This document shows, piece after piece, positions 2,157 to 43,096 of a stretch of DNA of 46,102 nt. The translations under genes were made by a program, and so were the position numbers. The notes under the pieces are model-generated. The model was not told the origin of the DNA. It saw nothing but the letters and a program-made list of their open reading frames with translations, and did not search any database. How positions within the stretch are numbered: position 1 is the stretch's first letter; the number at the start of each line of letters is the position of its first letter. This DNA comes from a virus: the IMG/VR virus record IMGVR_UViG_3300049893_001422, positions 1 through 46,102 of that record; one strand, 5' to 3'.

Positions 2157-2669
2157 GTGGCTAAGAATAAAGATAACAACGGTACAAGGTCGGCTCGGGT
2201 GCTTGACCGTGAAGCGGCACTAAGAGATGCAAGGCGCGGGTTGCGGCCTGGTGAGATTGCCGCCAAGCAAGGGGTGCAACGCACTACAGTATGGCGGTTC
2301 CTTGTGGCAAACAAACATGAGATAGAACAACACGCAGACTTTGTGAGTCGGCGGGCCGACCTACTGGCAGGCATTCAGCGGCAAACCCTGAGGGTGCAGC
2401 AAAAGCTTGTGGAGCAGATAGAAAGGGATTTGGATAAGGGCGTTACAGGCGCACTGAAGCCTAGTCAAAAGGCGGTATTGCTCAATGCGCTTAACAATGT
2501 GCAAGGTACGGTTTACGATAAGGAGCGGCTGGAGCGCGGCAAGTCGACATCTAACGTTTCGGTTCTTTCTAGAATGATGGATCAGTCCGTCAAGTCTATT
2601 CACTCGCGTAACTCGCTGAAGAGATTAGAGCCTGGAGCTGCAGCAAGTGGCGAGTCTGCCAAAGACTAG
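2157..2669 (+). CDS. terS: Putative terminase small subunit
   Basis: A 170-residue protein encoded just upstream of the large terminase, as is usual for the DNA-recognition subunit of the packaging motor. An N-terminal helix-turn-helix is visible at about residues 27-48 (GLRPGEIAAKQGVQRTTVWR). A long helical, charged middle region, probably the oligomerisation core, follows (IQRQTLRVQQKLVEQIERDL). The start is taken as the GTG at 2157, behind GAGGG at a 10-base spacing; a TTG at 2100 gives a longer but less convincing N-terminus. Assignment rests on the domain plan and position, not on a specific family match. A transcriptional regulator is the main alternative. Confidence 0.65.
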   Translation: MAKNKDNNGTRSARVLDREAALRDARRGLRPGEIAAKQGVQRTTVWRFLVANKHEIEQHADFVSRRADLLAGIQRQTLRVQQKLVEQIERDLDKGVTGALKPSQKAVLLNALNNVQGTVYDKERLERGKSTSNVSVLSRMMDQSVKSIHSRNSLKRLEPGAAASGESAKD

Positions 2670-11159: not shown

Positions 11160-13212
11160 CGCGATTCTCTGTGGACATGCTTTCGCGCAAGGCGTAACAG
11201 CGGTTCATCCGGTCAAACCTAACGGCACGGCTCTCTTCCCTGCAGCTTTTGCTTCCGCCGACAATATCTCCAATCAGACCGCAACGGCAATCCACGGTTA
11301 CATGATGGTGTACGACGGTTCAGCGTGGGACCGATGGACCGGCGCGGTGACGCAAGGCGGAACGTGGAATATCGGAACGGTTACGACCCTGACAGGAATT
11401 ACTAATCCTGTGACGGTGACGGACGGAGCTGGGGCGCTCAATGTCATTGTGGATTCAGGCTCTGTAACCGCGAATGCCGGGACGAATCTGAATACTTCAG
11501 CCCTGCTAACGGCTGCTCAGCACGACGCCGCATTCGGTACGGCAGGAGCCGCAGACGCTCAAGTGCGTACAGTCCAAGGCATTGCCTCAATGACCCCGCT
11601 GCAAGTGCAGTCGAATAGCGCGAATCTTGCGACGGAAGCGACGTTAGGGAACGTCCTGACTTCATCTAACTTTGCTGCCGCGTTCGGGACTGCTGGAACG
11701 GCGGATTCTCAGGTGATGTCGGTGCAAGGCATTGCGTCCATGACGCCATTAACCGTTACGGCCACTAATCTAGATGTGCAAATCGGGGGTTCTGATTCCC
11801 TGACGATTGGGACCTTTCCTGATAACGAACCATTTAATGTCGCGCAATTCGGTGGATCTAATGTAGTGACCGGCGCTGGTGCAGGTGGCGCGGGCATACC
11901 CCGCGTGACGGTATCCAATGATTCTACGGTAACGGCCAATCAAGGGACCGCTGCTGCAACGACAGCAGGATGGCCGGTGATTAGTGGGACCGTGACACGA
12001 GGATCGGCGGCGTGGACTTCGGCGACGGGGGTGGATACCGCCGTTTCGGTTGCGGTCACGGGGTATGGTGCGGTGTTGGTGGTGTTAAATCAAACCACGA
12101 CTCTGACAGCGGGATCGATCAATTTCGAGTACAGCGATGATGGCGGAGCGACGTGGTATGCCGCACCGGGGATTCAACAGAACGGGCCTTTTCAGTTAAC
12201 TTCTTACGGATTTCAAGCAAACACGAAAGAGCAATTCCGTTTCAATGTGTCGGGAGCCACAAATTTTCGCGCTCGGTTGAATCCGGTTATTACAGGGTCA
12301 GGGACGGTCAATGTTGGCGTAAATGTTATGGCGATGCCATCAACAGAGCGTTCGATTGTTTCACAAGCTACGGCGTCAAATCTCAATGCTCAGGTTCAAG
12401 GGGCTGCGGCATCTGGGGCTACGAAATCCGGCAATCCAGTGCAGACTGGTGGTGTATTCAATACCACGCCTCCGACCGTGAGCAATGGACAAGCGGTGGA
12501 GGCGCAATATACGGCGCGTGGAGAAGCCCATACCGTGATTCGTGATGCCGCTGGAAACATTCGAGGGGTCAATGTCACGGCTGGCAACGCGCTGCAACAG
12601 GATGTGACCTCAATCGCGGGGACGGCGGTCGGGACTGCGGCGGCAGGCATTCAAAAAGTCGGGGTCGTTGGGAATGCGAACGGCGCGTTCGATGCCGCGA
12701 ACAATGCGGCAGCTCCTGCAAACGTGCTGGTCGAAGGATGGGAAACCGCCACACAAACGACAACGCAACCCACAGCGGCCACAGCAGGCAATGTGCGGCG
12801 GGGTGTGGCCCGCACCGATGGGGCTCTCTATGTCGTTCCCGGTGGGCCAGTGCAATGGCAATGTAATTTGGGGGGTATTGGGACGACGCTCACAGAATGC
12901 AAAGCGGCACCTGGTGCAAGTTTGCGATTGTACATTACCGATATTGTGGCTGTCTCAACGACCACCACATCCGGATTATTCACCTTGCGGTTTGGAACAG
13001 GGACGAATTGCGGAACTGGAACGGGCAATCTCTTTTTTGCTTCCGCGTCCGCCACGCTTCCGAACGCTCCGAATAACGCAACGGGAGGGCCAGGTGCGAC
13101 GATTATGAATTTTACGACCCCGATTGCTGTCACAGCGAACAACGCCGTCTGTGTACTTGGCGTGGCGACAAACACAACGAACATTCAAATTTCTGGCTAT
13201 ACGGCCCCATAA
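11122..13212 (+). CDS. Exported repetitive fibre-like protein
   Basis: A 696-residue protein. It starts at the ATG at 11122 (GGAG 10 bases upstream; frame open further upstream). The N-terminus is a Sec signal peptide: MMAQRVLL, a Leu-rich core, then CGHAFA before QGVTAV. The mature protein is low in charge and rich in Thr, Val, Ala, Gly and Asn. It contains two near-identical segments around residues 135-160 and 183-210 (AAFGTAGxADxQV...VQGIASMTPL, bases about 11524 and 11671). A central module (GYGAVLVVLNQTTTLTAGS, FEYSDDGGATWYA) is typical of phage-associated beta-sandwich domains. The C-terminal part has paired Cys and ends ISGYTAP. It looks like a secreted or virion surface fibre. Confidence 0.65.
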   Translation: MMAQRVLLSLLLSAILCGHAFAQGVTAVHPVKPNGTALFPAAFASADNISNQTATAIHGYMMVYDGSAWDRWTGAVTQGGTWNIGTVTTLTGITNPVTVTDGAGALNVIVDSGSVTANAGTNLNTSALLTAAQHDAAFGTAGAADAQVRTVQGIASMTPLQVQSNSANLATEATLGNVLTSSNFAAAFGTAGTADSQVMSVQGIASMTPLTVTATNLDVQIGGSDSLTIGTFPDNEPFNVAQFGGSNVVTGAGAGGAGIPRVTVSNDSTVTANQGTAAATTAGWPVISGTVTRGSAAWTSATGVDTAVSVAVTGYGAVLVVLNQTTTLTAGSINFEYSDDGGATWYAAPGIQQNGPFQLTSYGFQANTKEQFRFNVSGATNFRARLNPVITGSGTVNVGVNVMAMPSTERSIVSQATASNLNAQVQGAAASGATKSGNPVQTGGVFNTTPPTVSNGQAVEAQYTARGEAHTVIRDAAGNIRGVNVTAGNALQQDVTSIAGTAVGTAAAGIQKVGVVGNANGAFDAANNAAAPANVLVEGWETATQTTTQPTAATAGNVRRGVARTDGALYVVPGGPVQWQCNLGGIGTTLTECKAAPGASLRLYITDIVAVSTTTTSGLFTLRFGTGTNCGTGTGNLFFASASATLPNAPNNATGGPGATIMNFTTPIAVTANNAVCVLGVATNTTNIQISGYTAP

Positions 13213-32279: not shown

Positions 32280-32632
32280 TAGCATGAATAGTTTGCGACA
32301 TTTTCTCCCATGTACGCTGAGCAGAACGTCGGTCTGTATGGAATCGACTGTTGTGGCCGAAGAAGATAATTCGGCTGATTCGACAGACTCATAATCGCCA
32401 TCGTTCGCAGCATTATTTCATCTGCCGATTCTTTTCTATCCTGAACATCGTTAGCTCGCTGTTTGTTCTCATACGCGGCCAGAAACATCAATTCACTTGT
32501 TCCTAGCGTGAGCGGAAACAGGACGGCCCTTCCTGCAAACTCAGCTACATTCCCCATTGCCGTATCCTGGCTGAGCGGGGCGCATCCTGTGAATGACAGA
32601 ATAAGCAAAAGGCAAATGAGATTGGTACGCAT
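32276..32632 (-). CDS. Lipoprotein overlapping the integrase gene
   Basis: A 118-residue protein starting MRTNLICLLLILSFTGC, a clear lipoprotein signal (lipobox FTGC, Cys17), followed by APLSQDTAMGN. The mature part has a hydrophobic patch (AVLFPLTLGTSELMFLAAYENK) and three further Cys. The start (CAT at 32630-32632) lies inside the 3' end of the integrase gene, 92 bases before its stop, in another frame, and is preceded by AAAGGAGGATAGC. It is therefore probably co-expressed with the integrase, which is the pattern of lysogenic-conversion or exclusion lipoproteins. Function is not determined by sequence. Confidence 0.65.
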   Translation of the reverse strand: MRTNLICLLLILSFTGCAPLSQDTAMGNVAEFAGRAVLFPLTLGTSELMFLAAYENKQRANDVQDRKESADEIMLRTMAIMSLSNQPNYLLRPQQSIPYRPTFCSAYMGENVANYSCY

Positions 32633-33506
32633 GGCTATCCTCCTTTGTCCCGCAGATCCAGTCGGCATACGCTTGGACAATCCCTGCTAGATATTCATAG
32701 TTCAACCGCGTATAGATTGCGACCGGCCTGCCATCGTAGTGATTCAGAATCGCTTTTGCAGTTAAGTCGTCTGCCTTTACCTGTGAATACAGATAGCTCG
32801 ATAAGGTTCTCCTGAAGTCGAGTAATTGCACGTCTTGGCAATCAAGTGCTTGGCGAAAAGCGTTCCACTGTTTCCTGACAGACTTTGTTTGTATCGGTCT
32901 GTCTCCGTATCCCATAAAGAAGTATTTACCCTCGTTCGGCATGGCTCGCAACAGCCACGCGGCCTGAGAAGGAATATGCGTTTGCTGCGGTCTGCCGTTT
33001 TTCGTAACGCGCTTTATCCATTTTCCGTTAGCCAGGTCAACATCTTCTCGGCGCATGTTGCACAATTCAGTGATGCGGCACGGCACGATCAAGCGGCAGA
33101 GGAAGAACGTGCGATACTTCAACGGAAGCGATTCGATACCTGTCAACAATCGTGAAATTTCCGCATGAGTAAGAATCCGTTCCCTGGAGAGCATGGCGGG
33201 AGATTCGATCCCTTCAGCCGGATTTATTCCATCATAAAGGACAGATGTTGCCCCCGGCATAATTTCGTTTTTTGCCCACGTATAGGCTTGCGAAACGAGT
33301 CCAATGCCTTTCGCGCATTGTGATGGAGTCTTTATTGTGGAGGCTCTGAATTGCAACAGATGAATGCGGGTTACGCAATCAGCGGGTAGCGAAGCAAAAT
33401 CGGCCTTTTCAAAGTAGCAACGGTACACGCTAGCATATCGCTTGGCTGACGGTCGAGATTGAAGTGAGTCGATGTACCGCGTGATAATCTCTCTGAACGT
33501 AACCAT
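32541..33506 (-). CDS. int: Tyrosine recombinase / integrase
   Basis: A 321-residue protein with an N-terminal core-binding-like half (TFREIITRYIDSLQSRPSAKRY) and a C-terminal catalytic half. Catalytic residues seen are Arg144 (VPCRITELCNMRRED), Arg232 (LLDFRRTLSSYL) and the nucleophile Tyr265 (VAIYTRLNYEYL), with LNHYDGRP as the motif before it. Oddity: the His of the usual HxxR motif is Leu here (residue 229), which is rare and may lower activity. It should integrate the genome at a host attachment site. The start at 33506 is the first ATG after the leftward promoter. No attachment site was recognised nearby. Confidence 0.85.
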   Translation of the reverse strand: MVTFREIITRYIDSLQSRPSAKRYASVYRCYFEKADFASLPADCVTRIHLLQFRASTIKTPSQCAKGIGLVSQAYTWAKNEIMPGATSVLYDGINPAEGIESPAMLSRERILTHAEISRLLTGIESLPLKYRTFFLCRLIVPCRITELCNMRREDVDLANGKWIKRVTKNGRPQQTHIPSQAAWLLRAMPNEGKYFFMGYGDRPIQTKSVRKQWNAFRQALDCQDVQLLDFRRTLSSYLYSQVKADDLTAKAILNHYDGRPVAIYTRLNYEYLAGIVQAYADWICGTKEDSHAYQSHLPFAYSVIHRMRPAQPGYGNGECS

Positions 33507-33510
33507 GAAG

Positions 33511-33588
33511 GTATTGTAAAGGTACAATACTTTCATTGTCAACGCTATTGACAAGTGCAATTCGGTTCTATATCCTAGCGCTTGTCAA
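33511..33588. promoter_or_regulatory. Divergent promoters and operators between int and the early right arm
   Basis: Leftward: TTGACA (complement of 33537-33542), 18-base spacer, TACAAT (complement of 33513-33518). Rightward: TTGACA (33548-33553), 17-base spacer, TATCCT (33571-33576). A perfect 8-bp inverted repeat, GTATTGTA-AAGG-TACAATAC (33511-33530), covers the leftward -10. A second, TTGTCAA-CGCTA-TTGACAA (33536-33554), joins both -35 boxes, and TTGTCAA recurs at 33582-33588. The arrangement looks like a switch in which one repressor could control both directions. Confidence 0.65.
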
Positions 33589-42653: not shown

Positions 42654-42701
42654 ATGCAACCGTATCGGAAAAAGCCAGTCGTGAAACGGTTGGTGGATTA
42701 G
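42654..42701 (+). CDS. Possible 15-residue leader peptide
   Basis: A mini-frame, MQPYRKKPVVKRLVD, starts behind AGAGAGGATAACCGCC, a leader very like that of the portal gene, and stops nine bases before the structured RNA at 42710-42862. It has five Lys/Arg residues in 15. It could be a leader peptide whose translation affects folding of the RNA, or the remnant of a gene broken by the RNA. Evidence is the leader and frame only. Confidence 0.3.
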   Translation: MQPYRKKPVVKRLVD

Positions 42702-42709
42702 ACCCACAT

Positions 42710-42862
42710 GGGAGAGGCGGCGTATACGCCGAAGGTGGATCATCGGAGGCACCATAACATCCTCCGTGCGGGGGTAGAGGTTCCCCCATGCCAGCGCGGG
42801 ACTTGTGCCCAAACGGGACGGCAGGACCAAAACCAAGCCGGTGCAAATCCGGCCCTCTCCCA
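42710..42862 (+). ncRNA. Structured RNA with tRNA-like acceptor/T-arm, unclassified
   Basis: Outer stem: GGGAGAGG (42710-42717) with CCTCTCCC (42854-42861), 8 perfect pairs, followed by A-CCG. Directly inside the 3' strand is a T-arm-like hairpin: GCCGG (42837-42841), loop TGCAAAT, CCGGC (42849-42853). The rest folds into CGGCG-TATA-CGCCG (42718-42731), CGGAGG/CCTCCG (42744-42749, 42761-42766), GGGGG/CCCCC (42770-42774, 42783-42787) and TGCC/GGCA (42789-42792, 42820-42823) closing an inner hairpin. A T-arm abutting an acceptor stem is the tRNA layout, but there is no normal anticodon arm and it is twice tRNA length. Cobalamin riboswitches share GGTGCAAATCC but their other boxes are missing. 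Confidence 0.6.
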
Positions 42863-42883
42863 CCGAAACGAAAGGGGGACGCC

Positions 42884-43096
42884 ATGAGCCTTAATCAGCG
42901 GGTTATTCGCTGGTTCCATCGTTGCTTCGATGCGAATTGGGTCCGGTGCAATAATTGTCTCTGCCGTCGTGAATATCTTAGGGCTGATGTCGACCTACTC
43001 CGAAAGTGTCCTGTGTGCGGGAAGTCGGTACGTGGATATATTGAGAGGATGAATTCGGCAGGCATATTCCGCGATGGAGAATGGATATTGCCATGA
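42884..43096 (+). CDS. Small zinc-finger-like protein
   Basis: A 70-residue protein starting at 42884 behind GAAAGGGGGACGCC. It has CNNC (about residues 19-22) and CPVC (44-47), plus an extra Cys between, the pattern of a small zinc ribbon such as those of phage DnaC/translation-related or com-like proteins. A longer frame from 42788 runs into the structured RNA and is rejected. The stop overlaps the next start (ATGA). Function unknown. Confidence 0.6.
   Translation: MSLNQRVIRWFHRCFDANWVRCNNCLCRREYLRADVDLLRKCPVCGKSVRGYIERMNSAGIFRDGEWILP

Follow-up and report, generated by a model that had tools for sequence, protein, structure and literature searches.

A candidate irregular tRNA-like RNA with a tRNA-Ser-like acceptor and T-arm in a phage genome

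Irregular tRNA-like RNAs are known from soil and sediment sequences, including soil metatranscriptomes (Mukai et al. 2017, reviewed in PMC7609411). They have lengthened acceptor helices and extra stems, and five-stem junctions have been proposed; some cannot serve in translation, and in one case the RNA overlaps an ORF belonging to a mobile element (PMC7609411). The allo-tRNAs combine an 8/4 or 9/3 arrangement of acceptor and T stems with an anticodon. Phages also carry tRNA-Ser(gct) genes, which decode and have been discussed as not being targeted by tRNA-cutting nucleases (PMC10264068).

The element described here is about 150 nt in length and is located in a 46,102-base virus record, the whole of which was analysed and is referred to as the window. 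Phage genes in the window include a P22-like portal (Pfam E 5e-84), a terminase related to phrog_2, a primase, a UvrD-like helicase and a tyrosine-integrase-like ORF. A block of small co-directional genes is found on the 3' side of the helicase, and the element lies inside this block, flanked by a 15-codon frame and a zinc-ribbon-like gene. Because a helicase relative with 56% identity is present in a prophage contig of a Nitrospira metagenome-assembled genome (MAG), with a similar gene block, Nitrospira is probably the host of the phage, as judged from this one relative. The GC content of the element is 64%, as compared to 52% for the window. The features of the locus are as follows.

32541 to 33560: tyrosine-integrase-like ORF.
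42654 to 42701, plus strand: 15-residue mini-frame MQPYRKKPVVKRLVD, read directly, just upstream of the element.
42708 to 42887, plus strand: 59-codon open frame that covers the element and terminates in the next gene's ATGA, with no recognised relative.
42709 to 42717, plus strand: 5' strand of the closing (acceptor-like) stem, TGGGAGAGG, from the sequence and pair probabilities.
42718 to 42731, plus strand: hairpin CGGCG-TATA-CGCCG in the place of the D-arm, from the fold and the tRNA-Ser(GCT) alignment.
42737 to 42836, plus strand: enlarged centre replacing the anticodon and variable arms, with alternative hairpins at 42744-42766 and 42770-42787.
42837 to 42853, plus strand: T-arm-like hairpin GCCGG-TGCAAAT-CCGGC, abutting the 3' strand of the closing stem.
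42854 to 42862, plus strand: 3' strand of the closing stem, CCTCTCCCA, with CCG next and no encoded CCA.
42884 to 43096, plus strand: next gene, 70 aa, zinc-ribbon-like (CxxC/CxxC), with a Pfam Zn_ribbon_20 match (E 0.024) below the cut-off.

The mini-frame seems to resemble the N-terminus of a common phage protein (YRKKPVVIEA...), and it may be a truncated gene.

The two ends of the element form a perfect closing stem of 9 bp (42709-42717 with 42854-42862). The first-pass annotation had recognised this perfect stem, one pair too short at 8 bp. Each of the inner eight pairs has a probability of at least 0.98, and the outermost pair one of 0.54. As that annotation also stated, the 3' strand directly abuts a T-arm-like hairpin with a 5-bp stem and a 7-nt loop, TGCAAAT, for which the pair probability is 0.99. 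The acceptor stem and the T-arm make up a continuous helix of 14 pairs. Four further hairpins had been proposed for the interior. The first is well predicted, with probabilities of at least 0.95, and the rest are ill-defined: neither CGGAGG/CCTCCG nor GGGGG/CCCCC reaches a probability of 0.03, and forcing both costs 4.4 kcal/mol. Beyond the first hairpin, the centre of the element has no settled predicted fold. The minimum free energy of the whole is -71.5 kcal/mol (z -3.20), and 1 of 200 shuffled sequences folds as well. In these phages a closing stem by itself often arises by chance (26 seen, 22 expected), but for a stem of at least 9 bp with an abutting 5-bp hairpin carrying a T-loop-like loop, the expectation is only 0.017 per shuffled window.

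The acceptor and T-arm go beyond the tRNA-like appearance noted earlier, as both match tRNA-Ser of the likely host. The ends of 41 distinct tRNAs from the Nitrospira MAG were compared with the window without gaps. The inner 7 nt on each side of the closing stem (42711-42717 and 42854-42860) are exactly the acceptor of the host tRNA-Ser, GGAGAGG/CCTCTCC, and only 0.24% of the 7-mers in the window are equal to any host acceptor strand. Residues 42837-42860 agree at 21 positions with the 24 nt of tRNA-Ser(GCT) that precede the discriminator. This is both the best of the 41 host tRNAs and the best place on the two strands, the maxima at unrelated places being 15-18, and the binomial expectation over all places and tRNAs is 0.0036. 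The T-arm of the host tRNA is GCGGG-TTCAAAT-CCCGC, and relative to it the third pair of the stem is changed on both sides in the element, from G-C to C-G. On the 5' side, an ungapped alignment pairs residues 42711-42736 with the first 26 nt of tRNA-Ser(GCT), and the stretch ends in GCCGAAGG as in tRNA-Ser. The best place for these 26 nt is 42711-42712, with 18 identities by automatic count and 19 once the first base, at the end of the contig, is restored; a score of 18 also arises by chance elsewhere with other tRNAs, so the weight lies on the agreement in location.

A 3' match of this kind could also mark an attachment site, in which the 3' end of a host tRNA-Ser gene was copied into the phage for integration. 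The T-arm and acceptor of a tRNA are a usual attP core of tyrosine-integrase phages, and the window contains an integrase-like ORF. The longest exact run shared here with a host tRNA is 12 nt, however, no longer than chance runs elsewhere; there are three mismatches in 24, the integrase is about 9 kb away, and such a core needs no 5' acceptor strand. We consider this explanation extremely unlikely.

In an alignment of whole tRNAs with a cheap central gap, tRNA-Ser(GCT) has a z score of 7.2, while the next tRNA reaches 4.5 and the maximum over all tRNAs in 200 shuffles is 4.9. For a covariance model based on tRNA-Ser(GCT) from Nitrospira (12 sequences), the element is the best match in the window (21.9 bits, E 0.0057), and the next is at 9.8 bits. 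The similarity to tRNA-Ser is above that to other tRNAs and above chance, and comparison of the sequences suggests that the parent is most likely the GCT isoacceptor. We favour the reading that the element is an irregular tRNA-like RNA from a bacterial tRNA-Ser, cut out by RNase P and non-decoding, and give it an even chance.

Most of the tRNA-Ser signal is located in the acceptor and T-arm. With both ends fixed and the interior shuffled, 59 of 2000 sequences reach the score (z 2.05), and the interior taken as a whole is only weakly tRNA-Ser-like. When shuffling is restricted to the D-arm stretch (42718-42760), the count is 16 of 2000, which supports this stretch; for 42790-42836 alone it is 295 of 2000. 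The model aligns to the element in two ways, over 42711-42861 with a large central insert (23.6 bits) and over 42774-42861 with no insert (21.9 bits). On 50 other phage records, the same model produced two chance matches of 21-24 bits, in GC-rich DNA with no T-loop.

The differences from the host tRNA are unevenly distributed. Only 2 of the 24 paired bases in the acceptor and T-stem differ, both of them in one pair that is still paired, whereas 7 of the 19 bases in the D region do. At equal rates, two or fewer changes in 24 would have a probability of 0.0017, with the limit that the true ancestor may not be the host tRNA. This contrast suggests, at the level of sequence, that the acceptor/T half has been kept while the decoding half has not. 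Compared to tRNA-Ser(GCT), the D-loop GG (G18G19) is lost, position 55 of the T-loop is changed from U to G, and the G73 discriminator (serine) and the encoded CCA are gone. In addition, about 100 nt take the place of the anticodon and variable arms, and the acceptor helix is two pairs longer.

Losses of this type would also be found in a dead tRNA gene, that is, a phage-borne tRNA-Ser with an insertion or partial duplication that is decaying and has no product, its stem being perfect since the loss was recent. Such a pseudogene is the main rival to the favoured reading, possible at well below even chances. It would account for the loss or change of the anticodon arm, D-loop GG, U55, G73 and CCA, and for the absence of the element from related phages. 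A partial tandem duplication would agree with the presence at 42774 of another 5' acceptor-like strand, which is poorer than the first. On the other side are the small number of stem differences, which have left the pairs intact (again provided that the ancestor was like the host tRNA), and the fold z score. Descent from tRNA-Ser, which is common to the pseudogene and the favoured reading, is quite likely on these comparisons.

The element was also compared with the defining features of known tRNA classes. The 7-bp acceptor stem of canonical tRNAs is present and perfect within the 9-bp helix, and so is the abutting 5-bp/7-nt T-arm, both also found in the class II tRNA-Ser(GCU) of Nitrospira (copies L148/L184 and L233-L252), which is 93 nt in length. 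In contrast, the loop TGCAAAT departs from the canonical T-loop TTCRANY, and the TATA loop in the D-arm position has no GG. An anticodon-arm candidate near 42801-42818 is weak, its stem containing two G-U pairs and its loop 6 nt, and occurs in one model alignment. Of the features used by SerRS, the discriminator position following the 7-bp acceptor holds C (A on an 8-bp count), and a variable arm is not recognisable. The element resembles the allo- and irregular tRNAs in its serine-type acceptor, longer acceptor helix and extra stems (PMC7609411). It differs from the allo-tRNAs in having a 9/5 or 8/5 arrangement, no clear anticodon arm and a phage carrier. With the phage tRNA-Ser(gct) genes (PMC10264068) it shares the carrier and the tRNA-Ser(GCT) type, but it has no recognisable decoding arm. 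If it functions at all, it would do so in the manner of the irregular tRNAs. Because it lacks defining features of both canonical tRNAs and allo-tRNAs, it is filed as a variant of the broad irregular tRNA-like kind and not as a member of either. The earlier view that it fits no class needs rewording, as it is best explained as tRNA-derived and irregular tRNA-like RNAs have already been reported (PMC7609411).

With default settings, ARAGORN finds no tRNA or tmRNA gene in the element, which it calls only at a low threshold with introns allowed. Rfam gives no family at the gathering threshold, RF00005 included. A tmRNA was rejected on the silence of both programs and a cobalamin riboswitch on that of Rfam, and the first-pass annotation was correct that the element is neither of these nor a standard tRNA. 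The Twister-sister ribozyme (RF02681) was also rejected. It has a likeness in the hairpin GCCGGUGCAA..CCGGC, but the match (E 0.058) scores 20.3 bits against a gathering threshold of 34, the conserved GCAAGG is missing, and the match extends into the ribosome-binding site of the next gene.

The closing stem ends 21 bases before the start codon of the zinc-ribbon-like gene (42884), which places a closed multi-branched fold just 5' of the ribosome-binding site. This position would suit a structured leader or intercistronic RNA that is not tRNA-derived, for example one with riboswitch-like control of this gene, the tRNA-Ser match being coincidental. The similar hairpin in the weak Twister-sister match also points in this direction. 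So does GGUGCAAAUCC, a segment that also occurs in cobalamin riboswitches. An RNA of this origin is distinctly unlikely, given that the acceptor and the T-arm both correspond to a single, specific host tRNA and that Rfam, RF02681 included, stays below the gathering threshold.

The locus had been described as gene-free, which is partly right: the 59-codon frame is open throughout, yet searches of Pfam and PHROG gave no convincing relative for it. If the frame were a small gene, coupled to the next one through the ATGA overlap as in the neighbouring small genes, the folding would be incidental. However, there is no clear ribosome-binding site at 42708, the GC content by codon position (0.71/0.54/0.64) is above that of the neighbours, and the tRNA-Ser match would be left unexplained. 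We regard a protein-coding role as very unlikely.

At 42800-42826, there is a 25/27 match to the antisense strand of a queF-like gene found in several genomes of Nitrospira. It is probably due to chance (E ~3e-4 per genome over 175 genomes), and a role as antisense to host queF was set aside.

By DNA similarity, no homologue of the element beyond chance was found in phages, in 14 related viral records or in 175 Nitrospira-family genomes. An exact 24-mer search of viral contigs gave no match, and the related phages L005, L007 and G017 have no significant match to tRNA-Ser. Closed elements in L005 (2477-2566), L046 (6052-6128 and 6138-6237) and L007 (700-810) were considered as a family and rejected, as closing stems are as frequent as expected and none is convincing against host tRNAs. 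In L007, which is a relative by its terminase, the closed element lies within an endonuclease-like ORF and combines a 9-bp stem with a canonical T-arm; as a relative of the present element it was rejected, being within chance for the sequence searched (1.25 expected) and having no convincing tRNA match.

An element with the same plan was found by a T-arm pattern scan in L190, an unrelated 51.7-kb phage (2427-2525, minus strand, 99 nt). A 10-bp acceptor-type helix, AGGTGAGGGG/CCCCTCACCT, abuts the hairpin GCCGG-TTCGAAT-CCGGC. Default ARAGORN is silent, a tRNA being called only with a 23-nt insert in the anticodon loop (introns allowed), and the best match is to tRNA-Ser (z 7.5). The centre is enlarged in both elements, whereas the L190 element has a canonical T-loop and a second closed element next to it.

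That second element (2318-2402, minus strand) is cloverleaf-like. A 5-bp/7-nt hairpin with the loop GAAATAA abuts its 8-bp stem, and a UUGUCCA segment is complementary to UGGACAA of another loop. In a 96-kb phage contig, L186 (2640-3130; also in L187), there is a series of tandem tRNA-like units with T-arms such as GCCGGTTCGACTCCGGC and the repeated motifs GTAGTG..GGCTACT and TTGTTCTCG. Default ARAGORN and Rfam are silent on these units, which may form an irregular tRNA polycistron. The AT-rich phage L020 has a 72-nt tRNA-like stretch (575-646) with the T-loop TGCAAAT, on which default ARAGORN is also silent.

Several other structures were observed in these phages. The 10-bp closed element of L046 (6138-6237), a relative of the present phage, has a possible H-type pseudoknot (CGCCACGG..GCCCC..CCGTGGCG-GGGC) and adjoins another closed element. 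A 20-bp perfect inverted repeat surrounds 79 nt in an intergenic gap of L101 (5155-5273). The helicase homologue of L003 is interrupted by an intein-looking stretch (~11483-12301), and a small-protein frame of L005 (2274-2455; MWVLLLISMWPTGGNMSQAIG*FTSKDLC...) has an in-frame TAA after which the same frame continues.

RNase P recognises the acceptor/T-arm helix of tRNA. Under the favoured reading, the element would be co-transcribed with the neighbouring small genes, and RNase P would bind its acceptor/T-arm helix and cut on the 5' side. The released RNA would be stable, tRNA-like and non-decoding, and would lie just upstream of the ribosome-binding site of the zinc-ribbon gene. Alternatively, the cut might merely process the mRNA ahead of this gene. 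A possible benefit to the phage is that the RNA could serve as bait for a host protein that binds or cuts tRNAs.

The element may be an example of a domesticated tRNA. In this proposal, the acceptor/T-arm half of a serine tRNA would be retained by phages as a handle through which RNase P, EF-Tu or a defence protein that targets tRNAs is engaged, new folded domains would be added to it, and the elements here and in L190 would be independent examples of a class of non-decoding phage tRNA mimics. We put this forward tentatively, as a doubtful generalisation. With the two elements, irregular tRNA-like RNAs would be found in phages as well, in a form that escapes standard tRNA finders. Provided that the RNA is produced and is stable, it would offer a concrete system for testing whether non-decoding tRNA mimics are used by phages against host tRNA enzymes or nucleases.
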